Assembly (NCBI GenBank): GCA_029168955.1 | Contig: JAPDOI010000181.1 | Span: forward strand, 703,501 to 767,500 | Length of the DNA stretch: 64,000 nt | Direction of reading: 5' to 3' | From: Aplectana chamaeleonis | Taxonomy: Eukaryota > Nematoda > Chromadorea > Rhabditida > Cosmocercidae | Part shown: piece after piece, positions 988 through 49,645 of the stretch | Position numbering within the stretch: position 1 is the first letter of the stretch | Layout of the letters: the number at the start of each line of letters is the position of its first letter | Notes under the pieces: model-generated | What the model was told of the DNA's origin: nothing | The model's database searches: none | Seen by the model: only the letters and a program-made list of their open reading frames with translations | Made by a program: the position numbers and the translations under genes

Positions 988-1167
988 TCACATCTTAGAG
1001 GCCAGAGGTTCGGTCTGCTTATCTCTGTACCAGACATCACATCTTGCATCGCTTTGAGGGAACATAGCTTCGCCGACTCTGCATCCAAAATCTCTACCAA
1101 ACGCACGGATGTCCTGCACCACCTGATTGGTTCTACATAAGTTTGGTGTTTGAGGGTTCATCAGGAG
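988..1167 (-). CDS. M13 gene, exon 22: C-terminus and stop
   Basis: The exon encodes LLMNPQTPNLCRTNQVVQDI, a middle part with AFGRDFGC and GEAMFP, then CDVW followed by a 13-residue extension and TGA. Neprilysins usually end at C-x-V-W. The histidine that stabilises the transition state in active members ('h.p..yRv') aligns with Q by my reading, whereas the arginine is kept. The acceptor is GTTTCAG. Confidence 0.92.
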   Translation of the reverse strand, partial: LLMNPQTPNLCRTNQVVQDIRAFGRDFGCRVGEAMFPQSDARCDVWYRDKQTEPLASKM

Positions 1168-4100
1168 CTGAAACTAGGGTTAAATGTTCATTCAAGTGCA
1201 TTTTAGATACAGGAAATGCAAAAAAAATAAACAATCACCTGCTTCGAGATCTCCTTGCTATCGATATTCGTGCACAATGAATTGCCGTAAGCGATCCAAA
1301 ACAGCTGATTTGGGATGAACTGCTCCAAACCGGGAAGTCTGAAACAGTTGGAGCCAAATAACTTCTCGCTTTGCACTATGTCGATATCATCTACCTTTTC
1401 TCGATCGCATTGTTTTCCCTCAGATACTTCTGGTATGCCAAATAAGCTGCTTGTTGTCCTGAAGGTAACGTGGAGTTTATACACTTTGAGCTCGTTGTAG
1501 TGATCTCCCTACTCTGTTTTCTTACAGAGGAATACTACATAACGATTGGATGTCGAGTTTCAGACTCTTTCCAAGTAGCTGGCTAAGCCTTCTTTTTAGC
1601 CGTCTTTATGAGAGAAGCCCAGTTTTTACCTCCCAGATCTGCCATGTTTCCTCTCAGCGTTGTGGTGCCATCCGCACATCGCACATTACCCTCGTTTAAT
1701 GGACAACATTGAGTGCTGAATGATGAGGTTATCCAATAATAAGCAAATAACTACTCAGACAGTAGCAGGCCCGGAGCGCAACCGATCCCGCCCCTCCTCG
1801 CCCACTGCGACCGAAACGCAGAGCAGTTGATATGCAAACTTGCGGTGCGTTTCGGTTGTGATTGCAACGTGCAGTGCGTCCAGGTTGCTCTCCGAGCCAC
1901 ATGCGTTGACTGAGGCGCGCATTTCGAAATCGGATGAATCAATTGAAACGAGGAATAGTATCTGGGCTCCCTGCGATTTTTGAGCCGGATTCTGACTGTC
2001 TCTCTTGTAGGGCTTGTAATTGATTTCCTCTGCTCCATTTGCGCTCAATATTCGACCATCCTAGAATTCACTATATTCTTCATATTTGTGCAATATTTAG
2101 ACTGTATTCAAAAAATAAACGTTAACATGACTTTCCGAACGCAGTTTGAAAATATTCATGGAGGGAATATTTCGGATTTATTTAATCATTTCGAAAAAAA
2201 ATTTAGAAAAACGAATCGCTCGGATATTTAAATTCATTTCAATCTATATTTAAACTTATATTCAAATTTTAATGTTTGGAATAAATATGTGCCATGCATA
2301 CTTTCCATTGCTAGCTTTGAATCGTTCAACGAGATCATTAGAAGGACTCCGAGAAAGGGCGGTTGTTAGGAATACCTAATAATTTCAGGGAAATATACCT
2401 AATAGTTGGAGAAAATCAGGTGAAATCAGAAGATTGATTGGTGAAGTTGTCAGGGAAGTTGTGACGGAATCGAAATTTTAACCAGGTGAAAGTGTATTAA
2501 GCTGAAAGGTATTTCATAATCAGCACTAGCTCAGAAAAGGGACAATAAAGGGTCACATAAATCCAAGGAAATTCAGTAGGGTGGGGGAATTCGGTGAATG
2601 TGTGGAAATCGTTGGATTCTTCCTTGAAAAAATCGATTAGCTTGAATGGGTGCGATAATCGATCAGCGAAGCGTCCGAACCACGTCTATGTATCTATCGA
2701 TTTTCGCAACTGCGTTGCTAAAATCGGTTTATAGAAAGCGCCCAGGGCGCAACCATGTACGCTCAGGGTGCTGCGTGAATCAATCTCGCCAGTAGCACCC
2801 GGAGCGCAACGCATGCGGCCTGGATCGCAACATATGTGGCCCGTAAATTGAAAAATTTGTCACCCTGAGCGCAACATGGACGCGGCTCCGGGTGCATTCG
2901 GGGTGGGCTCAGGGCTTGCTATCGTCTGAGTAATAACTGGATGCCGTTATTTACACGAATTTTGGCAGTTGTGAGGCTGAATCGTTGGAGCCAAACAGTC
3001 TGGTGACAGAATCGGCGTGGCAAGTAGAAACAAAATGGAATGTGATGTGCCGTCATGCTCTTATAGCGTCGGAAACGGACGAGGCCAGCCGCGGTAGCCA
3101 TTTAACCCATTCAGTCCACGCCTAATTTTGGGTGACTGCACGTTCGGGACGCGCGCTATATTGCGTTACCGTATATCGTGTCCTACCGGCGGGATACGGG
3201 AGCTCGAATGGCACGCCACCAAAAATAGATTTTTTCATGTTCGTAGTCAAGCTATGTATCAATGAAATAAACTTTATACCAGGATTTCCACTCATGGAAC
3301 TCGTTCTAACCTGAGAAGCAACTTCCTGAAGTCACGGCAGTATCAAGGAGAAATATCATTTTGCCACCACTGCTCCAAAGAAATTCTCTTAAAAGAAGCA
3401 TACACGCTCGCAAACATAGTTGAGATAACGACTTTATTCAGCTCAGAGGGTTGATACTGAAACGCCTACGTCGTTGGAAGCAGTGATGTGCGTAATAGAA
3501 ATTTTGTAATTCGTTAGTCGTTAGTCGTTCAACCGGCCAAAACCCTCGTTAGTCGTTAGTCGTTAGTCGTAAAAATCTAGGCTCTGAAAAGGAGCACAGT
3601 TGAGGCAAAGAGCCCTTATGAATAGAAAAAAAGGAAGCATGAAGAGATGTACGTTTTCCAAAACATTCATGGTCATTAAAGACACAAATCGTTCCTTGTT
3701 AGAGAACCTACTTCAAATGGCAAACCTACGTATACATAACTTATTATATGCACGAAAGCCTAATACCCGAGAGTGTGTGTTTATCGATTTTTGTCATTTT
3801 TCGGTAAGAAAAGGAACAATATGGGTAACCGAGGAAATTTTGAACTTTTGCTTTTCTTCCAGCGCAAAATTTGTCATTCTGCGTTATATGATGTTATTTG
3901 AGATCTACCTCGTGGTGACAACACGGAGAATCGCACCGACTTTGCACTACTTGTTCTTTGCTCAGCGTCGCGAGCCGAACCGTTGCTCGGTTTAGAGGTT
4001 GTTTCCATAATGGGGAAAGGTCGGGAGAAATTAGCAGCCAGGTTAAAATTTTACCTCTGAGAGGTCTCAGCACCACTTTATGGAAACCCTATATCTCGAA

Positions 4101-7100
4101 TTTATGACTGAAAGTCGAAGGACGGCACCCTTAACAATCCAATGATCGGAGACAGTTCCCGTCGTTGGGCAGTTGTGGCTTGCAGGCACCGCTCCACATC
4201 ATCCCCTCTGAAAGTGTCCTCTGTGGAAACTTCCGCTGGAGCCGGTCAGTGCCGGAACCGGTTCAGTGAGCCTACCATAGAGTAGCGAGACCGACCCGAA
4301 GTCGCATAAACGCTACGCCTAACCTTGCGTAAAGTTCGATTGGGGGTTTTGATGAGGGGGTTCTAGAACTGCGAAGCAGTGTCAGTAGAAATAATAAGTA
4401 CTGAAGGCTATGGTTATTTTGTACCATTCACCTAGACCACCAACACGGCGATATGTATTAATCCTGGTGTAAGGCTCGGGTTGGGGCGCGATTTGAATGA
4501 CTGTTGGCTTTCTAACGAATTTTGGGATTGCTTACTAAAATATTTTTATTTTCGTTAGTCGTTAAATTCGTTAGTCGTTAGTCGTAATTAAGCACAACAC
4601 TGGTTGGAAGCGTCAAAAACGAGCTAAAGCGACCGTTTTCAAGCAATAAAGTTGTATGAGAAGGCGGATTTCACATGCAAAGTGTGCGGGGTTCCGCACC
4701 TCGCTGCTCATAATTGCTCTAAAAAGGTCATTTTGGCTCGTTTTCAAAGCTTCAAACGGCATCAACGTTTAGCACCAGGGCCATGTGAGTGGAGTTAAAT
4801 CTTTGATCCAATCATATTTGCGCTCGTGTGCATTTGCGAGCGCGTCCTCCGTTTTCAACCGAATTTCAGGAAACAACCCGTTGTCACTTCATTTCCATCC
4901 AATTTTTCGGGGGTTTCTCGTCAAATCTCATTACTGGCTACTCCAAGCCTTCGATTCAGACCATGAAACCGATAGCATTTTTAAGCGTGTATGCTGCCTT
5001 TAAAGGAGTTTCTTTGAATGCGATTTGGAGACCTGCTATCTGTTTATTTATTCATTAGGTACGCTACGTAAGGCAAGCGCATTAAACACCGAATGAGGAT
5101 TATCCGCTGAAACCATGAACCGGATTTAGCAGAATACAATACTGATCCTCAACTTCGCCCTAGAAGCATAACAACTTCTTCCCTGCAACGCGTTTGAAAC
5201 TCCACAGAGCAGAAGGTATCGGCACAGACGTAATATCGAAGTTAAGAGAGACGAAGCTTGACCCGTCCCTACAAGTGAAAGAGCAGGCTCAAATATATGA
5301 ACTCATAATGCGCTCGAAAAAATTATTTTTGAAACGGTTTTTTGTAATGAGCCCCAGCCATTTTCCCAAAAATCTGAACATTATGCAAAAGTGGAGCTGC
5401 CGACGAACCATGACTTCCATAGTCAAGTCTAGGATAGGTGAATACATAGAACTTGAGAAAACACGAAAATTCTCTCTTGTGACAGAGAAATCTGTTTTTC
5501 GAAAGGGTGTGTCCCACCGGTGGGACACGTGGTCGTGAATGGGTTTAACAGGATTAGGATGATGGGTTACTGAGGACACGATAAACTGCTGGGCATAAGC
5601 CTTAACTAAGCGAAACGCCCGTTTATCACTTGATTCTGTACTGGCACAAATTCATGTTGTAAAAAACCACATCGCGATTTTGTTTCATCACATTGCGCCT
5701 TTGCGAAAGGTTGTCAAAAAGTACGCAAATTAATAGTCGGCAGAAAGAAACTCAGCTGGGGCTTTGATAAGTGAAGGTGAAAGTAAGAACCTGTATTGGG
5801 TGACCACGCACTGAGCCATGTTCATTAATCCTTCCGTCGCCTCGTCGTCCATCCAGTTGCACTGATTCCAAGAGCAACCAATCAGTTCTCCTCCATCATC
5901 GAATTGGAAGCCTGTTAATTGTGAATCGATTTAAAATGAGAGGCACACCAGCAATATTCAGCTGAAACAAAAATCACCCTCATCATCAACTGCACGAGAC
6001 AATTGTTGACCAATCACACCACCATATCCAGCGAAATTAAAAGCTTTTGGGTAGTCGGCACTGAAAACGAGAAGAATCACCTTCATTGGTCTTGACACCA
6101 CTCAAAGGCACAGGACACCCTAAAAATTAATTCTTAGGTGTTATGCTCATCCTGGAGAGAGTCGCACGCTGATCACAGTGGTATCTCTGAAATCGTCCAA
6201 GACCCCCTTTGAACAGAGTTATGGCTCTTCAAAGATGAGTAGATTCTGAGGATGAAAAATTGGTGGACGAGTTGTCTCAGACCTGTATTTCTCTTCATTC
6301 GCAATTGTTGCGTGAGAAAACGCCAGAATAAGGAGACAGTCCGGTAGTGGGCTGAAGAACGACGACTCATTGGAATTCATCAGGCCATCGAGCCGCTATC
6401 GACTCCGAAAATCTGTTAGGGGGTCGAGTCTGTGGTGGTCGCTTATATCTCGCCTATTCGGAGGGAATTAGATCTGGCATTTGGAGCGTTTTATACAGGA
6501 GGGGTCTTCTACAAAATTACACGAAAATCTCAAAATTCATATCTGAGGGTGTACTTTGCCTTTAAGAGTATCTTTAATGTTTATACCTGTAGTATGGCGG
6601 GTTCCAGAGAGCAGCTGGTAACGTTATAGAATTTCTCTCAGGTTGGTACCATGCATCCACAAGTGCTGGAGATTGAAGAAACTGTTTCCTGAACTACCTC
6701 TAGTCATCAATCGAGTATCAAAATGTCCAGGCGTGGAAGTAAGAATCCTAACCTATCCGCTTTTTCATTGAAGACAGGGAACGCTTCGCGATTTCCAAAA
6801 CCTTTTTTCAGTGTTTTCAATATATAATAAAAGTTTCCTCCTTGCTTCAAAATGGACGCGTAGTCTTTCTGGAAATCTGATTAGAAGGTTGATCTAACAT
6901 TGGCACACAGAGATTTACGCGCTTTGTGGTAGTTGTCAACAGCTGTCCAGTTCTTGAAGTCTCCAAACATCTCAATAGGCCAGCCAATGTTTTTCTGCAT
7001 ACGTTCTGCTGTAAACATCAAATTACTACTTGTTCCCGAATACTCATAAGTTTCAGAATTGTAGTCACAAGGCCGCAAAAGGCAAAAATAAAGAAACGCT

Positions 7101-10100
7101 ACACTTCGGGAGGATACAATGTCTTTGTCACCAACCTTCAACTTCAAAAGATAAAATCGAGTAAATTTTTCGTAATATCCTGACCTTTGAGCAAAGCTTT
7201 CCTGTACGTTCTATCGTTCAACCAGGCTAATGTTTGTATCATCTCCTAAAAAACGTGAAATTTAGCGAATAATGATGAGTGGTGTTTTTTTGTTGGACAT
7301 ACCGAAAAACTTTTGATTACAAGATCAGTCTCCTTCTTAATATCATTGTAAAGGGCGTCTCGGTTTTGAAGAGATTTGACATACACGTAACCTGAACCAC
7401 AAATTATCAGCGATTTGAAATTCTGCCTAGTATGTGAACTGTCTCAGACAGCCGGGGGGTTCGGTCCGGCCACGATAGGCTTTTGATTTGACTACAAAGC
7501 GGTGTGGACGACGATACTGCCGCGTAATTTCCGTGCGTCTCGAAGTAAGAGGCATGTGCCACAACACATAGCCGTTCCATCGGCCACGACACGCCTTCGA
7601 TTCAACTACGACTAGTTTGGGCGACGAATGAGCCAAATGCCCATGATCGAACACGTTGATCGATCGCTCCACAATTGATCGGGCGCTTAGGCCATTGTTA
7701 TACTCTGCCACAGCACTGTCGCGGTTGCAGACCAGAGCGACGTCGCAGTCGCTGAGGACCAATTGTGCTACGCAATACATCACGCCAACTTACGTCTGAA
7801 ACGCGCTTTAGCCCGCGCAACTGCAGACGAATCGATAACCCGGAATCAACACCAAATCAGTTTAGTTTCAGCTCTATAAAGAGACAGGCTTTAAGATTTA
7901 TACATTTAGGATGAGGTGAAGGAGAGAAAAAAAAGAAGGAACTACAAAAAAAAAGAAGATAAATAGAGGAAAACCGCCCTGAACCAATCACTCCGTCGCC
8001 GTCGCGGGCATCGGGCGCAGTGCGCCACACTGCGACCCATGCCCGCGACAGCGACCGATTGCGGCACGTTTTTAACATTTGAATGCATAACACCCATCTG
8101 TGACCCTGAGACGCGACCAGCGCATGCAACGTGTTCCTGCGACAGCTTTTTTCACGGTGGGAGTGTGAGTCCCGAGACGATTCGTAACCGCTCAGCGAAC
8201 CTGTCGCGGTCGCAGACGGGAGGTATAACAATGGCCTTATCAGCCGCACAACACGTATATAAGGGGCGCGATTTCATAGAAAGCACAGTCGGCTTTTCGG
8301 GGCCGCTCCTGAAAGGAGACTACGAGTCACTTTCCGGACGATTTTCGACAGCTGAGGGGTCTCCCCTCGGTCCTCAGCGCGGCAAGCTCCTCCGCTGTCG
8401 TCCGTGGCGAGGGTGATGGTTCTGTCGCGGACTGCTGTAAGAGTGATCCCCGGCTGCGGGCCGCGACTTGGACTGTACCCTTGTTGGGGGAGACCCGCTT
8501 CTATCACAAGGGATGGGATCCCGTCCCCAGCAGCACGTGCTTCAATTATAGGACGACGTGCTGCTACGTGGGAATTTCGGGTGCGACACGGGTTTGTCTC
8601 TCTGCGCCACGTACTCCTAAAGAACAGGCCACGTGCTTTAGCGTGGGAAATAATGGGGTGAAACAAAAATGTTGCCTCGCTACGCCACGTGCTTCTATAA
8701 TAGGACGATTTGCTGCCGCGTTGGAAACGGAGGTGCGGCAAGGGTTTTGTCTCTCTGCGCCACGTAGTCCTATAGAACAGGCCACGTGCTCCACGAAACC
8801 GGACGTGCTGCTGCGGAAAGTCCTTTCAACTCGACTAGGTATCTGATTAGAAAACCTATCGCGGCCGAATTGTACTTCCCCAGTATCTGAGGTGGAAAGT
8901 CTCAAATGAGCTTTTGATTTCGATTATCGGCAGCAGCGAAGAGGAGGACCTCGGCAAAAAACAACTGGTGGAAATGATGTTTCGACGAAAAAGGAAACGC
9001 TCACCGCTTGTGTTCCTAAGTCTTGAGCCTGCGCTAGAGCTGCAGCAGAGCTTATGCACCAGGGATGTGCGTTAAGAGAAGTTATTTTTTTCGTTAAGCG
9101 TTAATCGTTAATTTTAGAAAAAACCCGTTAATGCGTTAACACGTTAATTTTGCATTTCGTAAAAATATAAAAAGAAAAACATTACCACGTCTAAGATCAA
9201 TCAAATTATCAGATATCCCATATCAATCAGTGCCATACTATGCTCGGCGCGGAATAGGTCCCCTCACGTGGTACTGAGCTCCGGAGGGTCGAAGGGCTCC
9301 GGAGATATCCGTAGACAATCGTGTATGTGAGTGGAAACCGCCCGGAGCAGTTTTTCACATATAATTCAGTTAATTCAACTACACATTGCGGTTTGACTGG
9401 AATGCTGTTTGAACTGAGTTGAGAGTGACGGTGTTCAATTAGGAAGTTCAGGGTAAAGTCATAGTGAAGGTGTTCCCAGATGATGGGCAAGACATATGAA
9501 TCCTCAACGTGAAGTGTGTAAAGCAGTTTGCCTATCAAATGCTGAATGATTTCTGCGAAAGATTTCCATGAGTTAGTAGAGTTTATATTTGAGTTGAGCG
9601 TAGTAGATTTATCCTGTACAGAAACTTTCCTCGTTTGAGAGTGAGGCATAACACCGCTACAATATATGAGCTAACACCTCTCTCATTGGTGGTCCCACTG
9701 GAACTCAGCAATTCTGAGAAGTAGGAGTCACGGGAGTGGTAAATCAGAGCCAGGGTGGTCGATTTACTCTATGCTGTGTTTCAGCGTCTCAAATGAACGT
9801 CGAAGACCGCTAGGCTGATAGAGGAAGACGACAAAAAACATCCAAGTTAACGAATCTATGTAAACTAGGGTTTTAAACTGCAGTAACTCAAGTTCTAAAT
9901 GAGGTACCTGAGAAAAAATCTAGCTTCAGAAAACTACACTCTGTACCCTACTGTTTGAAGCCTACCGCACCTCTGGAGTGTGCCCTTCGCAAAAATCTTC
10001 CTGTTGTGGTTTCTGCGTCAACATTCGCGTGTTCTAAGTACTTACTTCGTTAGGTGTGGGCCCACAGTGCATTTCAGAGAAGAACCCACAACAAATAATT

Positions 10101-13100: not shown

Positions 13101-16100
13101 GTTCCCATTTAAGCAATTTGTTTGCGACATACTCGTGTTTTTTTAAGGTGACCAGCACGAGAAATCTGAGGTGAGATCAGGATAAGACAGCTTGCAAAGA
13201 GCCGGCTAAACAGTCATTGAATGAAAACTTCTGAAAATGCATGTAGAGTGATAGTTTTAGTCTGACGAATGGACGGGGCTGCGACGGTAGGCATGTGGAT
13301 TGAATCCACACCGCGGGTGAGACTAAGGAGCAGTTTGACTGGCACACGCGACGCGCGAGACGGAAAAACGTTGAGCGCATCCGTCGTCTTTGGGGCGAAT
13401 GGGGGCTGACGATATTGATTCCGATGCCGACCCTTCGTCTGACACAACAACAACATGAACAAAATGCAAAAAATGGTAAAGGGGAATGGCTAAAATGTAA
13501 CAACAACTACTTTTTCGATGGCCCTCGGTTGACGCGCCCCAAGAACGACGCGCGCGCAGCGTTTTTCCGTTGCGCATGTCGCGTGTGCCAGCCGAACTCC
13601 TCTTTAGCCACACCCGCGGTGTGGATTCGATACACATGCCACGACGGTAGATCACTCCGCGCGAATCGAAATCCCTTTCTCCAGTGAGGCCGCCAACCCC
13701 GCACGGCCAGCAGACTGGTCCATGCGTTAGACTAAATCGAAAACGGAAACCATACAGGACATGTGCTCAATCAGTCAAAGTGCCTTCGGCCAGCGATACA
13801 ACAGTACCCACCTGGACCATAGGGCATATAAGTCATCGTTTCGAAAATGCATGGAATAGCACTATTTTTACTACCAAACCTTCTCCTTGAACGTTCTTGA
13901 CCAATTCTGAATATGGAAAATTATGTTCCTTCTTTAATTTATGATCATAACTCGAGTAGGTAGCCACGACGTTGTTTGGTGGGAAAATTTGCACGCGGGG
14001 AAACTAAAAGAGATGGCTATTGATCGACTGATTCCGCACACGATTGTTGAGTGCGGCATTCGGTATAGGGGCTCTCTACACACCGAGGGAGGAGTTGTCT
14101 CGCCTTTTTCGGCTCTAATTCCACGCGGGACCACTTCGTTTTCGGTGAGCAGCGTAACGTGTCGGACTGCGAAACAGGGACAACTCCTCCTTCGATGTGT
14201 ACTGGCTATAAAACTGCGAAATTCACATGGTTCCTACGCGTGCTGGCGCGGAGCGGAGGTTAGAGACAGTGAGAGAGCGGAGGGCAGACGGAGGCTGAGG
14301 TATCGCGCGCGCCGCTCGCGCCTCGAGTGATGTGAATTACGACGTTTTGTAGAGGGTAGAGAGCTCCCACCCCGAGGCTTCCTAATGGAATAATGCAGGC
14401 GTTATATGCTTTGTAGACTTATAAACTACAGAAACTCCTACGAAGCATACGCCTCTAGTATCAGAGTTGCTGGTGGTATTCGGTACGCATGCAAGACTAC
14501 CTTAGGCACACTGATGTTCTTCACTGCTCGGATTTTATACTCACCTCGCAACTCCACGTCCTCGTCTTCGAGCATAGTTAACATAATCTACATTCATAAC
14601 TTCCGCTTGGAACTCATTATTTAGTAAATCTGCTTCTTCCTGAATGGTCACTGTCGTTATATTGAAACACTAAAAAGTCCGCCTTGATCTTCAGGGCAGA
14701 CTCACAAAAAGCATTTGCGTGATCATGTAGTGTACCAGAGTATCGATATCAACCCGACCACTGGCGAACATTGCATCCAGCCAAGAGAAGTATGACGGCT
14801 GCGACAGTATAACCTTAATTTAATTTATCTTTTCAAGTCTTGCTGCAGCCCCTTTTGCCTGTCAGATACATCATATGCGCTGATATGTTTTTGATATGTT
14901 TGTACTCAGTCGAAGAACTGGGCGTGGCTTAGGTCATTCACAAAGTTTCGAAATCTCGAAATTTTGCCTCAAAATCTAATGAATAGCAGAGCACTGAAGC
15001 TTTCTCCCAGCAAGTCAGAATAGAATCTCCTGCAACACATCTACAACTCGAGAAAAAGGTTAGTGTGTGAACTTTCAAAGCACATATGGCCTATCTCCCT
15101 CTTTTTGAGCCGGTCGGGGTAAGGCTTATCGGACTCATCATGTTAGAACCTCATTACGATTGCTACAGTGGCTGGCAAAAGTATTGGAACACCACATTCC
15201 GTGTGTTTCAACCTTTCCGGTACATTCTTCTGCAACGTGAACAATAATCTTCTGATCCTTATACTTAAAGGCAGTGTTCACGATAGAAAAATCTCAAGTT
15301 TTTTTTTTACAGAAACGTGAGCTTTGGGACCTACCGAAGAAAACAGTGAAAAGAGAATCTCGAAAAACTTTCGGGAAGTGTATGAAGATCGTGTGGGCCA
15401 GTGAACCCATTGGGCCACCCCGCCTCCCAAACTAATTCATTCTGAAGAAGCTTGAATACGTAAACAGCCGGACAGCAAAGAAAATGGCTTTGATAAGTAG
15501 CAGTGGATAAGGTGGATCATGTTATCACATAGAAACGCTTCATTCTTTCACAACGGTCAATCCTTACAATCTCAAAAATATGACGTCACACAAGAGGTCC
15601 TGCTTGGGCGGTACAAAGGGCTTTTTCGTCACTTTCTGCAGTTCTCACTGACGCTACTGCCACAGTAAGCTCTTAACCTGTCATAATCAGCAAAAAACTG
15701 AACATCAATGATTTATCGTGAACACTGGCTTTAAAGCAGTTATGTCCCGGTGTGTGTATATATGTATGTGTGTATGTGTGTCCTGCGATTCTCTGAAATG
15801 GATGATCAGAACTGTTATAAAATGATACCAACGTTCAGGTGGGTAGGACATATATCGATTACCGAAAATTTACCCTGGATCATATGCTGCGCGCCTCGGG
15901 GCGCTCGTGTTTGTCCGTGGGGCGCACTCTTGGCTGTGGGTCATGGTAACCTCATTGAATCATTTAGCCCTAGAAGGGCTACGCTGTAATCAAAGCGACA
16001 GGTCTCCAGTAGTAATGTACGAAACACCGTACAGAATCGATAGGGTTTGGCAGCGTGCAGGACGTCATAGAAAATGCGCAGGACCCCAGTGGGAGTGTGC

Positions 16101-19100: not shown

Positions 19101-22100
19101 TCTTTAAACTCACTTTAATCCATTCACGACCACGTGTCCCACCGGTGGGACACGCATTGACTACCAGTTCGGACCGCGTGTCCCACCGGTGGGACACCTT
19201 TTTTAAAAATGGATTACTCGCCCCCCCCCACAAGAAACTACTTTCGAACCTACATATGATCATTGCATTGACCCACACAAGACTTGAATAAAAACCTCGT
19301 GGTTCACCAGTTGGTGAAATGCAACAACATATGAAGAATTTTCTAGAATCAGGCGGGCTGAAGTAAAGGAAGAAAGGGCTGTAAAGTAACTTTTGAAGCA
19401 CCTTATGATTTCTTTTCCCTTCTATTGCTAACTTTTAGGTTGTTTAGTAGAAACCTATCGTGTGCAACTCGTTTACTTTTCTGGAAGCGTTCCAGCTCGA
19501 TTGACCCCTTTTTGATTTTGGGTAGATGTTCCTCGATAACGAAAGCTTCTCGGAACCTCAAACTCTGACACTGTTCGATTACCGTTGCTAGCTACAATAT
19601 AGACGCATAAAAAGGTGAAGCATTTACCCGTGGTACGCTAAGCAACCCAGCGTGTCCCAGCGGGGAGACACGCTATACAGTGACACAATACTGCAAGCGG
19701 TCCAAACGTGCAGTCACTTAAAATTACTCGTGGTCGTGAATGGGTTGAAGGCATCGTTCGCGCTGTAAACCACAATCCATTTTTTGGCTCAATTTCATCA
19801 ATTAGCTCAATAGACCACACCGGTAAACATTGGCGCGTCAAAAACGTAGCGTTATGAGGTTGGAAGGGGTTAAAAATAAGGATCCGCCACAAGTTCTCAC
19901 CAGCCATCTAGCACAGGGAACAGAAGCGCCATGTCAGGCGCGAGAGATACTGTATTGCAAACTCTTTTCGGAAAATCTTATCATCCAAAGTTGCACAGCG
20001 AAAGCTTCCTATTTTTAGGTGATTTTGGTAGAAGAAAGGCAAAAGGAATCCTTTCACCTAGATAGTTTAAAGCGTAGAACCACTTCAGACGTTTAGAAAA
20101 AAACTTCGGAAGTATTGCACTGGACTCACCGAATTCGACAGAGGGGGCGAAAAATCGTTTTTTAAATAGTTTTTGAACGCATTTATTTTGCGGAAGCTGG
20201 GGTTTTTTGGGGTTTCTTTGCTATTGTCGCTTACCTCTAGAGCATGCCTACCCAAAAACATGGAAAAATAAGACACCGATCATTACGCGTGCGATGCTTT
20301 TAAGTAGGGAGCTGATGCTTCTTGCAGCTGCGCCCCTTGCAGCTTCTTCTGCGAGTATACTGGCTCGCAACGGCTTATTGAGCCTTAGCACACGCTGGTG
20401 CAACAGTAGGTAGAATGGGGACAGGAACTTCTATACACCGAGGAATGATTTGTCCTGCCTTTTGCTGCTCTAATTCCACTCGGGACCACTTCGCTCGCGC
20501 TGAGTGGAGTGACGATTCAAACTGAAAAAAACGGGACAACTCCTCACTCAGTGTGTAGACAGCCTCTGACCCGGTAGAATGCTGTACAATATGGGCGTGG
20601 CCTCTTACTATATTGGCGAGAGCACGCGCGGTATCAATCGAGTGCTTACATTGAGTATAGTCGGCAATATGATTCATTAAAATTAGCCATCGTCAGAGCA
20701 CTTTTGTGAGCACGTGCATGTTAACGAAAGCGGCTTTAACTTTCCAAATAGCTTGTTCATACGTAATTCTTTATGTAAAATATGGAGTACTCGTTCGTCT
20801 GAGATGAATATGGTATTAGCGATTTGACGCTTAGTCACACTTGGACCTTCATTAACAATATTATGTACTTGCTCAATGATTTCTGGTGTTGTTGTAGTTT
20901 TTGGTCGCTCACTATGTGGTTCATCTTCAACGCTTCTACAACCGCGTTTGAACTCTACAACCCATCGATGCCCAGTTTTGTTTCGGAAGGTTAAACCTTC
21001 TAAAACAAAGAATTCTATCACTGCACGATACTCAATTTTTTTCCATTGTTAAAAATACACCGACACGTCGAATTAATATGGCTTGTAAACAATGAACGAA
21101 TAAACATATCGAAATAAAATGTTTAGCATGTTCATATAAAAAATGAAATGTCAAAATGGCGTATGATTTTTAAATCCTCTACTGCTTAATAGGTGTCGCT
21201 TTCAGAACTTTTCTACCGGCATGTACACAAAGCCAAGAACGATTTGCATGCGATTCCCCGCTTGTATTTGGCTCGAACATAAAGAGGTAACAACTCCTAC
21301 CCGGTACACACTATAGCTCCATGATTTTGGGAGAAAGTTATCGAAATACGACTTCCATTTAATCGACGGATAGTCCTTCTCGAGCTGTTGTATCGTATAG
21401 AAGTTATGCTGCTGTCCGTAATTTCTCAAGTGAATCAGTACGATCAAATGATGATAAGTGATTGCAAGTGATTGTTTAGGAACGATAAACAAACCTCATT
21501 TCACTATCTGGCCATGATGCGATGGCAATGTCACGTTCGAGGTTGACAACTTTTGTAGCAGCCTTCAAGTAATGGTCCACGAATCGGTAGCATATTCGAA
21601 CTTCTGCATAATAGCGTGAACAATGACGCAAAACTATACCTCACGGGTCGAAGAGTACAGAAAGTACGGGCGTCTCTCCAGAATATACTCGGCGAAATTC
21701 ATAAGACTAAATTCGATAGTCTGCCGCCGTTGCTTCAAATTTATACGAAACTGAGGAAGAATGTAGTTTTCTCTAGCCATCGAAAGAGAGGGCTGAAAAT
21801 GGGTCTTACAAGGTTTCAATGCTTTTGGAACATCTTCGTTGAAAGTCTGTTATATTACGATTTGGGTTGATGCATAATCATGGAACGTTTACATTAATGC
21901 GTTTTTCTTTAGTGAAAGTTGGCGTTTCGTCCTCAATATCAACATAAAAAAATCTTTAAAATTTAGAAAAACTTCGACTCGAAAATCACACTCATATTCG
22001 CCTTATTATGCTCTACCACTACGAGAAAGGATGGACCGCAGCTCAGTCATTTTGCGAACTCAACGATTTTTTTGGCAAAGGAATGATTACTGATATCCCT

Positions 22101-25100
22101 AACAGAAATGGCAAGCGGCAATTCATCATCAACAGCGACCTCTACCTGGCTCAGCTTGATCGCCTTAACGCTGCGATCGAGGCGAAAAGACCGCGCAAAA
22201 AACCACATCGTGTTCCATCACGGTCACGCCCATTCGCATGTTGATCGCCGTGTGATCAAATCCATCGCCAATAAGGGATGGGATCTGCTCCCACACTGAT
22301 AGAAGACTATCATGTCAATCGCTCTTTGAAAAATTGGCAAACAAGCAAAGTCCACGACGACTTGGATGAATTGGTGTCTGATGCCAAAGTCTGGATTGCC
22401 TCCAAAAATCGCGACTACTTCGCACGTGGAATCGACCGACTGCCAAGCAAATGGGAAGCAGCTCTTGGAGTGGATGACGACTGTGCTCTCGAATGATCAT
22501 TTAAACATGCTTTGATTAAGTATTATTACTGTTTTTGTTGAATAAAACTATTAAAAAACGTTCATAATTATGCATCAACCCAATAATTCGTTTTACTCTG
22601 TTAACCTGTGGCTGGAAGGCCTAACACGGCATTCGGCTTGTTTTGCGCTTTATCAGAGTGAGAGCATTGTTCTTCGATTCTCTCATTCTATGAGGGGCAT
22701 TCAAAGACAGGGTCCGGGCAGGATTTTATCTTGGAGGTTTTCCGCTAAAGCGGAGCGCAGGCAGCGGATTATTCCAAAAGATATCGTAACCTTGTCCCCG
22801 AAAGCTTTTTCACCTGTGTGGATTTCGAGATAATTTTTGAATCACCTGGGAGATGTAGAGTACATTATCGTGGTTGTTTTTGGTGTCGACAGAAACCCAT
22901 GATTCCATGAACGTGCCAAGTGCAAGCTCCAGCTCCATACGGCCCATGACAGCAAAGACATCAAGATCGGATTTGAGAGAGATGTTCATGAAGGGTATTC
23001 CCCCGAACCTGTCAAAGCGAGAGCTTGGCGTTGATCTTAATTAAACATAAATTCGAAAATTTGAATGGCTGACACAATAGTTGCTCAGAACATAATTTTT
23101 TTGTTCAAATTCTGCGCTCAGAACTAGAGACTGCGAAATGTTTTTTGAGTTTCATTACCTCTACGAAATGAGGTTTCCAAAAGTTCGAATTACACCAGCC
23201 GCCTTTATAGCGGTTTCTTGCCCGTTTCGGGCAGAACGTGAAGGTCTGACGAAGGCTCTAGAAGCCGGAAGCTTACCGAAAGGATGTTTCAAACATACGA
23301 AAACCTTAATTTCAAAAGAATTTTCATACGTTCGAAATTCAGTGAGCATTTTGCAGCCTCTTGTTTTGCGTAGTTACTGTGAACGGAAACTGGGTTCGGG
23401 GATAGCATTACCCTGCTATATTTTTTGCTTAGCGAAAGCCTGTTACTGTGCTTATCTGGGCCAAATTCCGGTCCGCAATTGCGTCTCGACACGCCTTGCG
23501 GCCGCACGCTCCCGAGTCAGAAGAGCTTCCAGCGCCGCAGCCGCCGATCTGCTGACTCTAGGTGGGTTTTGGGAAGTGGAAACTAAGAAAAATTAGAAAA
23601 AATTGTGTAAAAAAGCCACGTCGAGTCGGCTTTGGCGCTGGAAACCCGACTGACTCGAGCGCGTGCGGCCGCAAAGCGTATCGAGACGCAATTGCGGACC
23701 GGAATTTGACCCAGATAAGCACAGTACATCACTTCAACCGAAAGCAAAGTTGTCAAAGGGGTCGAAACCCTCTTCTCAGAAAGACTGTGAAGCCACCTGT
23801 ATTCCGATACACTTCTCAGGGATCATATGTCAAGAAAATGTACGCACTTGAATGAACTACCACCAATTATCCACTACTTACAGGTCAACTCCACATGGCC
23901 TTTCAGTCCGCGAAGTGCACGCTGGTTGCGAAAGCGTGCTGCGGCGCGGTTCCGGGTACCCTCAAACAAAGATTTCGGATAACCCGTACGATGGGATCAC
24001 CGGGCACCGAAGGCAAAAACTGCCCGGGTTTCCCACATCCCTGTCTGAGGATACTCGCAACCGCGCCACAGTACGCTTTCGCAGTCAGCGTGCACTTCGC
24101 GGACTGAACGGCAATGCGGAGTTGAACTCTACAAGGCTATGCTAGAGCAAGGTGATTGGCTCTGGCGGCTTGTACAAGAACGATTCACAGGAAGAGTTGG
24201 ACTCTGTTTGAATGGCTGAATCAGAGGCCCAGCCTTCAGTGTTGGACAAGATGCAGTCGGTTCGAGCTTTGTCGTACAACATAGAATTAAATCATTGTTG
24301 GCTATCAAAACGATTTTTGAGCTCTCTTAACGAGAATATTGTTTTGGTCATCACAAAAGTAAAAGTAAGTGAAAAACCCGGAAATTTGCCGGAAAACGTT
24401 TAAAAACAAGGTATAACGGCTAATTGCAGGTCTCGACCGGCCCCCTAGAGATTTTCGTTGAAGCCACAGTATACCCTCGGACATGATTTTTGTGATTTTC
24501 ATCTGACTGTGTAGTAGATCCCTCCTATGTAACACGCGCCAAGTGCGAGATCTCGATTTCTCCAAATAAGCGAGATATAAGCGACCACAGGCCCGACCCC
24601 TTTCGCTCACCACCACTGCCCAGACCCCCCCCCCAGATTTTTGCTTTTTATAGCGGCTAGATAGATGGGTGAATTCTCCACAAGTCTTCGTTCTTCAGTC
24701 AATTGCTGGACAGTCTCCTTATCCTGGCTTGCTCTCTCCGCAACGGTTGCGAATGAGGAGAAATACAAGCCTGAGACAACTCGTCCACCAATATTTCACC
24801 CTTAAATTATAGGCATCTTTAATGAGCCATAACTCTGTTCATAGGGGGTCTTGGACGATTTCAGAGATACAACTGTGATCAGAGTGTGACCCTCTCTAAG
24901 ATCAGTACAAAAGCTTAAAATAATTCCCTGGGTGTTCTGTGCCTCTAATGCTTGTTTATCGCCTTATGTTTTGCTGATAAACTAGTCAGTAGTCTCAAAA
25001 GCTCAGAAATTACTTAGAAGCAAAGTAAAGATTGACGGATCAGGCATTCCTGCAATAACTTGTCCCTCAGCGTTTTTTTCTATAAGGCTTCACTTATTTT

Positions 25101-28100
25101 CACATTTGGTATGACCAGATCTTCTCATGAGGATAGCACAGCAACCGTTTTTATCGCGAACCCTGCCCTTAACCATGGAAGTTGTTTTCCATGCTACTAC
25201 ATAGTTCATTCATCAATAATAATGTTTCTAACGTCTTACCACTCCTTGATATCCTTCAGCATTTCGCCGCCGTAGTGTGGTTTGTAAGTCTTTTGATCTA
25301 CGCATGTGTCTACAATCTGAAATTTCAGCAAGGTGACTTTTAGGTCGTTGTACAGTACACACATCGCTGTGCAGCCTCATACGGTATTGGAACAGAAAGC
25401 CCTCTGTGGATTCTAAATATGTTTAAAGGCAGCAGACACGCTCAAGAAAGGTATCGATTTTATGTCCTAATTCGAAGGTTTGAAGCTAGTAGTAGGTGAA
25501 ACTAACGAAAAACGAATGAAAACTGCATGCAAATACAGGAATAATGGCTGGTTTTTTATAGGGTGAAATAGGAGTTATTCCCGAGCGGTTGAAATAGCTA
25601 ATATTAACGATAAAACAGTTGGGATAGCGAATCCGATAATTTTTTACAGCCTATACTAGAACGCTCACCTAGTTGGAATCTTCAAAAACCGGCCAAAGTG
25701 AGCGTATTCGTATTTTGAGGGGGCGGAGTTGAAAGCTCATGGGCGTGGCTGACGAAAATTTTCGACTCGATTGTAGTAGTTTTCACTCGATTTTGACGCT
25801 TCCATCGGCGTGAGCGTTCTACTAGGGGCCATACGACCCAAGGAGCTTAGTTATCTCAACAACTATTTCGAGCGTATCTGCTGCCTTTAAATGTATCCGT
25901 CAACTTCTAGCTGGGTTTCACAGTTAGCAGATTGTCGAAAACGCTGGTAAGCGTGGGGGTGGTTGATGAAGAGACGACAACCTTTACCATATTTCGGTCA
26001 CTGAGTGCAAAGACTACTTGCAAGAGTATGTTTGACAGATAGACGTATCAATTCGAACCCTAAAAGGAGCGCTTTGAAGGCATCGTCCACGAAAAAATCA
26101 TTGTTAGTTTTCTGGGAAAATGTGACCTTCTGGCACAGACCTAAAGTTCGTGGAGCTTCACGAGTCAGTTCTGCCTACCAAACCAGAAAAAGACTTTCGA
26201 AAATTGGCGCCCTCCGGATTCAAACGGCGGAGGAGACCAAATGACGTGGGCGCTCGTCCTGGGGTGCGTTCCAAGAACATTCCCACGGCAAAACGCGTCC
26301 ATGGAAACGTAGTCACGGCCACGTTGGAGCAAATTTTATTTATAATTCGCATCCATGGAAAGAAAATTTGTCCATGGTGAGGTTGCTTTTCCTCCCACAG
26401 CGTCGTGGCAAGGTTCTTGGAACGCAGCCCTGAATGTTGCGATCTCAGGCCGTTGAGGGTAGTACGTCAGGGTTGCATTCCGGCACAAAGGGATTAGCAG
26501 CACCCCTTGCTGTAGCTACTTCTAACAGTAGGGGCTCCTGCCAGCTAGAAGGAGCTCCTGCAGCTTGTGCTGAGATACAACCCCTTTGTTTATCATGGCA
26601 GGTGTGAGATCGGCAGGAGGGGTTGAACCCCAGAATGCGTAGGCAGCCCCTTCTCCTAGTGTCTGCTAACACTCTAATCCATTGGCAGGTCTGATACGAT
26701 TGAACATTGCAGCACCCTCTTGTTTGATAGCGGCGGGTATATAAGGCAGCCAGTCTCGCTGAGGCGGCAGTTGACCGTCTGAGGCCGGTCCAAGAAGGTG
26801 ACCTTGTATCGCTTTCCAGACGTTAATTTTGAGCACTGAGTGGGTCGTTCCCATAGCCCATCGCGAGGGTAGCCTCCTTGTTTTAGACCGTGGCAAAAAT
26901 GATGTCCTTGTAGCGGACCATGGTGAGGTTCTGCACCTTGCTTCTGGCCGTGACAATAATCATACCCAACACCGTCAAAGTGGGTACTAGTTCAAATTAT
27001 CTCTTCGTTTGCGGAACAGGCTGTCGATAGCGATGGGTTGAACACTAGCATACGTTGGCAGCATATGCTGACGTTAGCAGCAGCTCCTGCTAACAAATAG
27101 GGTATGTATTGAGTGTTTGTCCCAGAATTGAACCCCTATTGTGCCGACGCACTATACCCCAACTGTCCGAGATTAGCACTACGGTCAATGCGTCGATGAC
27201 ACGCAATAAACCCTCATCGCGCACTGGAAAACAAACCCCGACCACGCGAATCGGCGCAGTCGTGCCTCATCATTAAGAGCTCGCATATCTATAGTTTGGA
27301 GGATTTGGGGCGACTCTGCTGAATGAACTTTTAGCGCCTAGCGAGGCGACCACATTCATGCGAGAAAATTGAAACCAAAAACTATTGTGGACGGTGCATC
27401 TGAAAGAACTTCAAGACCTAGCTGAGAGTTGGTACGAACATACAAAGCTAATCCTTAACGAATTCGCAGCGATTCATCGCACCACCGTGGTATTCTGCTA
27501 ACATTCTGCTGAAAAGCCGTAAGAGAACCTCCTGTGGGCTACACGCTTTCCCTTACCGTTTTTGTGATCCTCTCCGTTAGTGACCACTTCTCGTCTTCCT
27601 TGACGTCGACTTTGTCCAACGCTTCTGCGATTTGTTCGAGGACGGCCAACTGAGCATTAGAGTGAGGCGACTCACTAGAAGGATTGCTATTGATGAACTG
27701 AAATCACATCTATCAGTTATAAATACTTCATCGATTTTTTAACATCTTAACGTCTCTAGGTCTATCTATAATCCATTTACAGCAGCTTTTCCGCCATTAC
27801 CGTTTCAGGGAACCCCGGTACCCTCGATTTCCGGCGAAGACTCGAATACCGTCTTCATCGTGAATACTGCCTCTGATGGCAAACTCCGGGCATAAATTTG
27901 GTTTCCGAGACTCCTAAATCGAACCCTAGTTTGTCACAAGGAACGAACAAAAACCTTAGGAAAAGCGGCGTCCAGTGAGCTGTTTCATTACACACGCATG
28001 CTCCAGTTCAAGTGTCGCCGTGTACAGAGAAGTGTCACCGTCGTCTGCGTTTTTAGCCACCGTCTATGCTTCCTACACGGCGCGCCGTGTAAATCACTTC

Positions 28101-37100: not shown

Positions 37101-40100
37101 ATATTACATGTAGCATGTTTTCATTTTTGTGGAAACCGTTTTCAGTCCACATAAGAAAAGAGGCATTTTTTTCCAAATGTGATCAGAACAACTTAACTCC
37201 AAAGTTGATGCTCGCATGTCTTCTAGTTAGCTATGAAAGTATCTCTGATGGAATAAAAACAAATAATCTGTCTGCTCTCGAATCTCTAGAATGGAGAAGG
37301 AAAACAAGTGATCTTCTGGTGGCTATTAGAATTACCGGACAAGCAAAACTAGAGCCTTTCAACTTGTTTACAATCCTTAATTTCCTAACAAGCGGAGTTG
37401 CCTACAGGGTATCGACCACAACAGCCAAAACTCAGATTAGATCATCGTTTTTCTGCATTCTAAAGTGCTCCATTTTCAATAATGTATGGCCAAATGAACC
37501 ATATAGGGCCACGTGCAGTACTTTCCAACGATTCTCTCTTGTGGCTACATGAAACCTCTCTCATATGAGTCCGGGCGGAGCAAGTAGCAGAGCGGTCGGT
37601 CATGTTAAAATACAACAGCGATGAGGAGATTTGACAGGATAAGCCCGATAACCCTTACCTCGACCGGCTCTAAATCTGCGAGAAAGGCTACATGTACATG
37701 TCCAGCGATGAATAATCTAATAGATAAGATGTAATCAAGCTTGTAAATCCTATGGTACCTCTAGGGTGCTTTGTGTCCCCATTCCGTGCCCTCCAGAATT
37801 GTGGGTAAGCATGATATTAATGGAGTTCTGTCTAGCGCAACGTTTGTTGCTGGTCTTAGGAAGAATGAGGCCGAACGCGTAAATGAACGGATGGAGCTGA
37901 TTATTCTGATTCCAGTGAACGCTTGACATTCTAAATGCTCGCGTTTACTGCCCCTCGAATTTCAGGTCTGGTAAAAAGCTGGTGAATCTATTTTTTTGCT
38001 CACTATATGCTTTGATTCAATACATAGGACTCTCAACAATGATAGTTATTGTTCGGCTCACTCACGTAACCGCACCATTTTTCTTATCTGCACAGAGACA
38101 AAAAAATTATTGTCTGCCCATCGTGACCTTTTATGCACTCCGTATCACTGACGTCAAATCCGGCAATCGGATGAATGCACACTGCGGAAACCCACGCTGC
38201 TTCGAAAAACGCTTAAAGGAGCCCTTGAATAAGTATGTCATTTTCGGCACGTCTATAATATGACCTTGTAAGATACGCGGCGTTCAAACCGCCGGGCTTT
38301 TCCCGTCTCCTCCCGCGTCCAAAAAGTAATAGAGATCATTTCTGTTAAGGTGTGTCCGAATGAGACTGGCCGACCATGCGGCCGTCGTACGTGACAGGCC
38401 GCTCTCGGACGAGCATGCGAAACGACAGCGAGCCCTCTCCGGCAGCCATTCACTAGGAGCGGGGTAATCAATCAACTCCGCAGCCGAGAGTGCAACCGTC
38501 CGAACACTCGTCCGAGAGAGGCTCACTCAGAAAAATGAAAACATATTTTATGTAATATAAAGACCTGAATCCATATACATGTAATATAAATTGGCCAATG
38601 CAAATTACTTGCGAATTATCTCGACCGATGTATGTTACATGCGATATATCGGACCCTCGATCCCAGGCCAAATGTCGCACGTAGTATGTTTTTGATGGTG
38701 AAAACATATACTTGTAACATAAGAGACGATTACAGTATACTTGTAATACATCTCCGTCAATGGAAGTTACATGTGAATTATCTCTACTCAAGTAAATTAC
38801 AAGTAGTATAAGTGTAACATAATTCAAATATCTCCAGCAACTGAGAGCTCATGCTGAATACCTTCTGCAAACCTGCACAGCATACGGGCCGCCTCATACC
38901 TTACAGTTAGTGGAGATCGTATGCCCATAGCATTGAGGCTCCGTCCATACATGGCGAGAGCGTGCGATTACAAGAAATCGATGGTCATTGTGGGCACACG
39001 ATTCGCTAACCGCTCACAGGAGCTCCTTCTCGCGCGCCCTCGCCCACTCGCTCTCGCGCGCTTGCGCCAGCACCACGAAGCAAGCAGGAAGTTTCAAGCA
39101 TACTGCTCCATCACTAAAGCAGGTGACATTGGACCTGTAGGAAACTACATAATTCCACCACGGAAGTCGAAAACCGTGGGAAATCATCAGCCGTTGCGCC
39201 GACTCGAGCGATTGAAAACGTTTTCAATCGAATCAACACGAGGTGGGTGGGGGTGTTTGCCTATGTTAATGTGCGGGCAGCGTTGAGGAGCGTCGAGAGG
39301 CGCACAACAGCGGGAGCGCCCGCTCTCGCGACGTATGGACGCTGCCTGACATTCGACGGGGTGGGCACTCGCCCTGGCCAAGTCGCTGATCTCTCGCTCC
39401 TCACGTTTCGTTTTATTCGTGAGAAGGATTAGAGGGAAAGACATGCATTATTTTTGAAGCAAGACTAAGCCCACCGCTTCTTGTATGAAGCTGTGGGATT
39501 CAAGCTTGCTGCTTCAGTTATGAAGCAGCGAGCTTTAAGCTCCTGGGATGTCCAAGAGAGCTTAAAGCTTGCTGATTCGTACCTGAAGCAAAAGTCTGGA
39601 ACTTGCAGCTCTAACCCTTTGAGCATCGAGCTTCAACTTGCAGCTCCAATTAAGTTACATCTTTGAGGTGAGGCACGAATGCGTGCAGTGAATTAATGAA
39701 GTTCATATAGTTAGCCTCGAATAATTGCTGCTCGGTACTCGGATGAAGACACAAACTTACGTTATTACATGAGAATTTATAGAAGTCCTCACATGGATCA
39801 ACTTTTTGGTCAAGAGATTCAAGGAGGTGAGATGCAGCAGCCTGTAAAAAGGTTTATGGAAAATATCGTATAGGTTTGCAAACAAAAAGATGTCCCCGTT
39901 TTGTACGAGAAATACACTTTTGTTGCATTCATGGGTTGACTTTTCAAAACTCGTTTTTCAGCGGGTCGCGAGTTTTTGATGAGAAGCATTTGTAAGATAG
40001 CCACCCAGGTCACCGTTTTTCCGATCCTCATAAGTGAATAGGCTCGATTCTTTCGTTTTTATCTTCTAGTCGTCGCCAATGTGGAGTCAATGGTTTCCAA

Positions 40101-48020: not shown

Positions 48021-49645
48021 TAAAGTTTCGTTTGAACTGAGTTACGGACGTTTGAAATTACGCGTCAAAAACAATTAATTTGTGAGCAATCTTATACAGT
48101 GCGGGAAGAACACTGAAGAAGAAGGGTAGCTGAAAGGCATCTTACAGCGTGTGGCCGAGTTGGACTAGAACCCTTAATGGAGATTAAAAACCTCTGATCT
48201 CTCCGACCCCCCCCCCCCTACGTTATTATTGCAGTGCAGCGGCATGTGCTCCTGGAACACGTAATGCAACTCACCTTTACTTGCCTGGGATCTCGTCCAG
48301 GAAAGTTTTTGCAAAGTCATATTGATGCATCAGACGCTGAAAATTTGAAATAAAAATTTCCCAGCTAGAACTTAATCGACCTCCATTTCGGCGTGAAACT
48401 CCCCTCAAAAGTTGCAGATAGTACCGTATTTAGTATTGAGTATTTCTGGGACGAGGATTAGACGTGTTCGGACCCCGTGTCACCAACCATCACGACTTTG
48501 CTCGCACTGCGTGTCGGTTGCCCGCGACTGCGGCCCGAAACTTTAGTTGGATATGAACTGCACTGTTGACTAGTAGGGCTAGGACTATAAATTACCTCGT
48601 GAATATTTACCTACAACTCAAATTGCAGGCAGAGCCAAGAAGGCGCACATTTTACATAAAAGTAGATGAAAGAAATGAGAATTTTATTAGCTCACCAATT
48701 GTGAAAACAACGAGTGGTTTCGCCATTTGGAGATTACCAAGAACGTCTCGTTATCACTGAACATACAGGTGCGACATTTTCATAGAGCAATAAAATACGA
48801 AGGCTGTAATCACATGTGCTATGACATGAGTTTTTCGACATTATGGCATTGCAGTGCAAATGTAGGTGCCGCAACGTTAGCGATAGTTTTTGCTTCCATT
48901 CATTCCTGAGCAAATCAAGGAAAGGTTTCAGAAGTTTTGTGTGGCGGATTTTGATGGCACTGTTTACGCTAAGCTCCGTTTCAAATTTCCTACAGAAATC
49001 AGTTGCTATGCGTTTTAGAAGCGGAATAGCGCCAAAAGAAGGTAGCGGGGGGACGCCTTCTCACTGTCAAAAACGGCTTAGAAAATTATTCGCAGCGGGT
49101 ATGTTGCGCCCTTCCGAGTCCCTGCTGTTGCAACAACACGGGCATCTTTCCAGTGTTCGACGCGGGGTGTGGAGCTCCGCAGGGATGGGGGGGGGGCAAA
49201 GCGAAGTTCACATCTGCGGAAACGGATTGTATTGTTGGTATCTCTTGGGCATCTTTAGTGAAAATGCGCAGTACCCGACTCAAGCTACTGGATCGGAGAA
49301 GTATTAAGCCCAAGTTGATCGTTTTTGTACTTCTTGTACCGTCCAAAATGAGCAGTACTCTGTCTGAAATCCGGAAACGGACCACATACTCCAGTTGAGC
49401 GTCAAAAACAACCCCCTGTCAAAAAAAATTGGACGGAATCATATTTCCCGTGCTTTTTACAGACTGATAGCGTCTTCCACTTGTACGGATTCCCGGTTGA
49501 GCGTTTACATACCTATTTCAATAAGCGGATTTCAAAAGCGTTCGAGAACAATGTTCCAGATTTAACTTAAACCCTCCCGGAAGAGTTATTTGGGGGCGCT
49601 CATCAAGAATCTGAGGTTGAATTGCCAATTTCCGGAGTTTTCGAT
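48021..49645. other. Intergenic stretch with one possible plus-strand exon
   Basis: At 48629-48760, after AAATTGCAG, the plus strand reads AEPRRRTFYIKVDERNENFI, SSPIVKTTSGFAIWRL and a stop. It looks coding but belongs to no family I recognise. The overlapping frames at 48843-49398 (both strands) have no recognised domain. Nothing else is identified. Confidence 0.3.

Follow-up and report, generated by a model that had tools for sequence, protein, structure and literature searches.

A probably maintained M13 pseudopeptidase gene in a tandem array of the nematode Aplectana chamaeleonis

The window gene and its tandem array

The 64-kb stretch of DNA considered here (the window) comes from the nematode Aplectana chamaeleonis and corresponds to positions 703501-767500 of contig JAPDOI010000181.1 (C991) in an assembly of 1.04 Gb. 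It holds a complete predicted gene model, with start, anchor, in-phase junctions and stop, for an M13 protein of the neprilysin/MEP type in which most of the catalytic residues have been replaced. This window gene belongs to a same-strand tandem array that also includes two paralogues, P1 (771.3-809.8 kb) and P2 (839.3-862.4 kb). Coordinates of the window gene are positions in the window, and those of P1 and P2 are in contig numbering. The window gene is probably a maintained pseudoenzyme.

The gene lies on the minus strand and has 23 coding exons across 47.7 kb (48726 to 988), with a predicted product of 846 amino acids. The initial annotation had counted 22 exons, in phase and free of stops. 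These 22 have AG acceptors, GT donors and matching phases over 848 codons with zero stops, but the first coding exon (48726..48696), which encodes MAKPLVVFTI, had been missed. The initial junction between exons 6 and 7 was dropped because it carried extra residues that are absent from the P2 junction, and the model corrected by comparison with P2 has 836 codons in these 22 exons, still without a stop. The first exon was sought among short ATG exons of the correct phase ahead of the signal-anchor exon, which gave four candidates upstream of the window gene, three upstream of P1 and one upstream of P2. One candidate per gene resembled the others: MAKPLVVFTI (window gene), MAKPLLTFTV (P1) and MAKPQPLLIFTV (P2). 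The window-gene exon also resembles the starts of P0020, P0002 and P0010, of which P0020 and P0010 are the Haemonchus contortus proteins V3C99_012430 and MEP1.

Both M13 domains match the product end to end (PF05649 at 2.2e-53 and PF01431 at 7.8e-58), with scores of 182.5 and 195.9 bits against curated cut-offs of 32 and 24.5. The C-terminal part also matches the nearest solved structure, 6row_A (“putative zinc metallopeptidase”), at 6.4e-40, and these matches together put the M13 assignment beyond chance. 6row_A is presumably a Haemonchus protein. An exon-like stretch at ~12.9-13.0 kb (DGSKIKYIPIHNP...) was rejected, since 6row_A is continuous between the preceding and following exons. Pfam scans of 27.6-42.6 kb gave no match, although exon 2 lies within that interval. 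The donor of exon 14 (6899) is uncertain; it is shifted relative to P1 and P2 and, on the present model, lengthens the exon by eight residues (ARKSLCAN).

A hydrophobic stretch follows the 10-residue N-terminal tail and is conserved in P1 and P2, indicating by hydropathy a type II signal anchor. A type II membrane layout is stated for MEP1 and MEP3 (PMC7173941, PMC9495197). Upstream, the three array genes share a TGATAA box exactly 30 bases before the ATG. Outside this box the last 60 bases match at only 19/54 positions between the window gene and P1, 23/54 between the window gene and P2, and 16/54 between P1 and P2, and a shared run of six was found in 0 of 20000 shuffles.

P2 has all 22 exons and matches the window gene exon by exon. 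In P1, only exons 1-6 and 12-22 were found; exons 7-11 were not recognised in the 21-kb gap at C991:780938-802531, and either P1 or its assembly may be broken. P1 and P2 retain all eight catalytic residues, with the motifs VNAWYQ, HELVH, GENIAD and DPHAP. Protein identity is 55.6% between the window gene and P2 (817 codons), 56.8% between the window gene and P1 (660 codons) and 70.7% between P1 and P2 (672 codons). Exon 10 of P2 (C991:845371 region) appears to use a GC donor (AAG/GCAAGC) rather than GT.

In the rest of the genome, 20 loci at 17 distinct places were examined. The HExxH exon was recognised in eight of these places, all eight reading HExxH, and in the other distinct places none was recognised by the pattern used. 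A DNA search with 1801 bases around exons 12-18 returned one full match, the gene's own locus, and otherwise an interspersed repeat; 40 of 6114 candidates were scored, which does not make the locus single-copy. On sequence evidence, a tandem duplication within the strongylid MEP1 clade gave rise to the window gene.

Catalytic residues, fold landmarks and selection

Residue numbering follows human neprilysin, in which H583, H587 and E646 are the zinc ligands, E584 is the base that polarises water and N542 co-ordinates the substrate (PMC2259306, section 10). Exon 17 of the window gene (6060..5978, acceptor tttcag, donor gtgatt) translates as ADYPKAFNFAGYGGVIGQQLSRAVDDE and reads GQQLSRAVDD where M13 peptidases have GHELVHGFDD. 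The earlier reading that QQxxR has replaced HExxH, with both zinc-ligand histidines and the catalytic glutamate gone, is thus confirmed. The positions equivalent to D650, H711 and R717 are taken here to be those of neprilysin, in which H711 holds the substrate and R717 contacts it.

The replacements extend over several motifs expected of a competent M13 peptidase. The window gene has N542D, H583Q, E584Q, H587R, E646G and H711Q, and retains D650 and R717. QQLSR stands in place of HExxH, whose H, E and H are found in 67/67 references with the column filled. The third-ligand motif GENxAD has become RGNMAD, with G at E646 (E in 63/63 filled references) and D650 kept. The substrate-binding residues have likewise changed, from N to D in VNA[FYW]Y and from H711 to Q, with R717 kept. 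With all three ligands replaced, together with the base and two other residues of the active site, the product is not expected to work as a zinc peptidase.

The rest of the fold has fared quite differently. The reference set comprised 68 homologues (70 search hits minus two broken Haemonchus proteins; 64 nematode-named, 4 unnamed), and columns at least 95% invariant among the filled rows were counted as near-invariant, which gave 128 columns, 8 catalytic and 120 other. The window gene has lost 6/8 catalytic positions but only 9/120 of the others (Fisher 2.3e-5). The near-invariant cysteines are all present (14/14), as are 111/120 of the other near-invariant sites, in agreement with the initial annotation, which had described the landmarks as kept. 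Four of the nine other losses (G649A, Q714L, G715R and I718M in 836-residue numbering) themselves fall within catalytic motifs. By the same count, P1 has lost 0/8 catalytic and 1/109 other positions, P2 0/8 and 2/120, and MEP1 1/8 and 7/120. MEP1 (P0010, O45131) retains HExxH and GENVAD and has S at the N542 position (VSAWY); since a protein with an intact HExxH differs there, this position seems prone to change in the MEP1 clade.

Selection was assessed against the array paralogues, together with the independent Haemonchus and Ancylostoma cases described below, in place of orthologues. Pairwise dN/dS (NG86) is 0.151 between the window gene and P2, 0.161 between the window gene and P1 and 0.151 between P1 and P2. 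A three-gene codon model fitted by maximum likelihood (829 codons) yields omega values of 0.229 (window gene), 0.201 (P2) and 0.174 (P1). A value of 1 on the window-gene branch is rejected (2dlnL 77.2), and a single omega for all three genes is not (2dlnL 1.3). The window-gene omega lies between ~0.18 and 0.30 within the usual limit, and is 0.237 in exons 1-11 and 0.198 in exons 12-22. When a terminal neutral phase is allowed, the best fit among the values tried is ~5% of the branch, scarcely better than zero (lnL -7146.54 vs -7147.69); such a phase predicts 4.9 stops, and 0 are seen. As an average over the whole branch, the time before the loss of catalysis included, these values indicate purifying selection on the gene.

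Relatives and other losses of the zinc site

Hits from three protein searches numbered 84, 18 and 148, and the best 120 of the 148 were listed, making 158 listed proteins in all, bacterial ones included. Trees were built after removal of the four catalytic motifs, in 20-row and 29-row versions, with support given as bootstrap/SH-aLRT. The window gene, P1 and P2 group together at 100/100. Next to this group stand MEP1 (O45131, tabulated under that name in PMC9495197) and its relatives, a placement that has support of 99/98 with 20 rows and of 92/90 with 29. It is on the strength of these trees that the window gene is counted with the strongylids. Among the MEPs of the H. contortus gut complex H-gal-GP, MEP1 falls in its clade, MEP1 and MEP3 have the type II layout predicted for it, and both M13 domains are shared. 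Unlike MEP1, which keeps HExxH and GENVAD, its product is left without any zinc ligand or base.

By pattern, four of the 158 listed proteins lack HExxH: P0020, P0063, P0091 and P0069, the last being a partial sequence from which the region is absent. P0020 and its counterpart P0063 from H. placei, which are 91.6% identical over shared columns, read VDAWY, RELVH and GQNIAD. These are also MEP1-clade M13 proteins with a broken zinc site, but their sister group is MEP1 with its H. placei counterpart, not the window gene, and they have lost only 3/8 catalytic residues against 6/8. The VDAWY shared with the window gene had hinted at a common origin, which the tree rejects (AU p 8.8e-61). The path between the two dead Haemonchus copies is ~0.10 and that between the two MEP1 copies ~0.09, so in Haemonchus the inactive copy has changed at much the same slow pace as the active one. 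No description of P0020 or P0063 turned up in the literature, in which no search was aimed at these names.

P0091, from Ancylostoma ceylanicum (Y032_0001g218), reads QELAK where HExxH would be expected, and RQNIAD for GENIAD. In this it resembles the window gene, but it belongs to another MEP subclade and sits on a very long branch, which makes its placement unsure. A single clade of all four broken proteins is rejected by the AU test. Given the trees and these two rejections, the three losses of the zinc site, in the window gene, in Haemonchus and (probably) in Ancylostoma, look independent.

Inactive M13 proteins are already known from flies, and the window gene adds a further member. Goe (Gone early) of Drosophila is one (PMC11266112), and inactive members are also reported from the neprilysin-like expansions of Drosophila (PMC2259306, section 9). 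Like proteins of the Goe type, the window gene has catalytic residues replaced within an intact reading frame. It differs from Goe, in which the replacement is EAxxD and the role is in germ cells, in being a strongylid tandem duplicate of the MEP type. Rat Kell is another natural M13 member with replacements, at E584 and E646 (PMC2259306, section 10), but it is a vertebrate protein and only those two changes are named. The same paper counts thirty sequences in which catalytic or structural positions are changed, all of them from invertebrates except rat Kell, and names no nematode case in sections 9 and 10. M13 is mentioned once each in PMC10418638, on H. contortus proteases, and PMC5039805, on the A. 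ceylanicum gut, in passages that say nothing of inactive members. No description of dead strongylid MEPs was found in the literature searched, which covers few subscription papers.

Possible role of the product and features of the locus

The initial annotation proposed that the gene is kept for a non-catalytic role, possibly at the worm surface. The first part is supported, in that the gene looks kept without its catalytic site and not like a fresh pseudogene, given an omega well below 1 and losses centred on the catalytic residues. The tree and the TGATAA box point to the gut rather than the surface. TGATAA is the intestinal site of ELT-2 (PMC3916258), and its conservation is a hint, not proof, that gut expression has been retained as in the neighbouring genes. 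If the gene is a maintained pseudoenzyme, expression in the gut is likely.

Several observations weigh against this interpretation. The TGATAA box lies so close to the ATG that it may not serve as a gut enhancer in any way. The branch omega averages the time before and after the loss of catalysis, inseparably, and dS approaches saturation (NG86 values of 2.0-2.2 for window-gene pairs). The two broken Haemonchus proteins show no clear concentration of losses at catalytic residues (3/8 vs 12/120 and 14/111; Fisher 0.051 and 0.087). Other points would suit a pseudogene in early decay, that is, an unselected gene that lost catalysis and in which stops have yet to appear. The window gene evolves faster than its paralogues, at 0.62 from the common node compared with 0.37 (0.14+0.23) and 0.41 (0.14+0.27), and no QQxxR orthologue was found by a pattern check among the 158 listed proteins. 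The array itself suffers decay, as seen in the shifted donor of exon 14 and in P1, where exons 7-11 are not recognisable. A neutral phase of 2% of the branch predicts only 2.1 stops and fits nearly as well as the best value and about as well as none, with an upper limit of ~15%. A very short neutral phase could escape the stop count, yet would not readily strike six of the eight catalytic codons and leave nearly all the others alone. Together with the rejection of an omega of 1 and the retention of splice sites and the TGATAA box, this selectivity makes early decay decidedly unlikely.

The fold could instead serve as a peptide-binding decoy or receptor, a role already suggested in the initial annotation, in which the closed M13 cavity would hold peptides uncut, such as host peptides or neuropeptides. 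The kept landmarks, R717 among them, are compatible with this, but replacement of both N542 and H711 argues against unchanged peptide binding, and such a role is considered rather improbable. The same landmarks and the retained D650 might suggest an enzyme that uses another metal or other chemistry; with neither His nor Glu left where the three zinc ligands and the base would be, this is scarcely credible. An artefact of assembly or gene modelling is just as remote: the data come from a single assembly and two junctions needed correction or need care, but the four altered motifs are spread over as many exons, all of them open and bordered by AG and GT, and all 22 exons have their match in P2.

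The preferred interpretation, a maintained pseudoenzyme, would run as follows. After tandem duplication within the strongylid MEP1 clade, one copy would have lost catalysis while the rest of its sequence stayed under purifying selection. To judge from its clade, signal anchor and conserved TGATAA, the product would sit on the intestinal brush border as a membrane-anchored pseudoprotease. Taken as a whole, the chances of such a maintained, membrane-anchored gut pseudoprotease are put a little above even. On the brush border its function would not involve cutting. Most likely it would support active MEP subunits, structurally or as a regulator, in a digestion complex resembling H-gal-GP; alternatively, it would hold peptides for active MEPs. 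Two points favour the partner role over peptide capture: N542 and H711, which hold the substrate, disappeared together with the zinc ligands, and MEP folds have a structural use as well. In the H-gal-GP model, four MEP copies are docked as a base (PMC7173941), and by analogy a dead subunit could keep this structural job. For a gene that is both maintained and expressed in the gut, the partner role has an even chance; on its own it is less likely than not.

More speculative still is the possibility that strongylid worms have repeatedly made duplicated gut MEPs into dead subunits, the cases being the window gene, the Haemonchus copies next to MEP1 and the Ancylostoma protein. Such subunits would be structural or regulatory parts of blood-digesting membrane complexes, in which some MEP places would be non-enzymatic by design.

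MEPs count as major components of H-gal-GP, which is one active ingredient of Barbervax, a Haemonchus vaccine; the native complex protects, but recombinant MEPs have not done so (PMC7173941, PMC9495197). If dead paralogues fill some MEP places, subunit composition, and perhaps the protective shape, would depart from models made from active MEPs only. The apparently separate losses in one worm group also provide a natural test of what use the M13 fold has once cutting is gone.

Table 1. Coding exons and other features of the window gene, in window positions
Feature	Position	Strand	Basis or remark
TGATAA, 30 bases ahead of ATG	48751..48756	-	resembles ELT-2 gut GATA motif; same place in P1, P2
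First coding exon, MAKPLVVFTI, cytoplasmic tail	48696..48726	-	likeness to P1, P2, P0020, P0002, P0010 starts
Exon 1 (of 22): predicted signal-anchor (transmembrane) helix and stalk	43912..44219	-	hydropathy scan; conserved in P1, P2
Exon 2: M13_N domain start (VDPCEDFYKFSCNN)	39761..39841	-	splice phase, Pfam match
Exon 3, M13_N	27557..27697	-	
Exon 4, M13_N	25240..25316	-	
Exon 5, M13_N	22846..23008	-	
Exon 6, donor corrected	21640..21792	-	comparison with P2
Exon 7, acceptor corrected	21495..21562	-	comparison with P2
Exon 8	21301..21424	-	
Exon 9	14706..14798	-	
Exon 10	14545..14639	-	
Exon 11	13812..13906	-	
Exon 12	7303..7391	-	
Exon 13	7185..7245	-	
Exon 14, donor uncertain (8 residues absent from P1, P2)	6899..7008	-	
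Exon 15	6753..6868	-	
Exon 16: substrate-binding motif VDAWY, not VNAWY	6587..6688	-	
Exon 17: zinc motif QQLSR, not HELVH	5978..6060	-	
Exon 18	5791..5911	-	
Exon 19: third zinc-ligand motif RGNMAD, not GENIAD	1630..1715	-	
Exon 20	1395..1458	-	
Exon 21	1239..1338	-	
Exon 22 and stop codon: NPQTPNLCRTN (Q at H711 position, R717 kept), C-terminal CxVW	988..1167	-	

Other elements were observed in the introns of the window gene. The intron between exons 5 and 6 contains an element (21862-22583) with 21-nt inverted ends that are 95% complementary. Between exons 8 and 9, at ~20.8-21.0 kb on the minus strand, a match to HTH_32 (1.9e-4, below the cut-off of the family) is accompanied by weak matches to mariner/SETMAR (E 0.29-0.58), which may mark the degraded remains of a mariner-type element. 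A repeat of ~460 bases (~6104-6566) lies in the intron that separates exons 16 and 17, and at least 39 further copies of it, at 88-90% identity, occur across the assembly.
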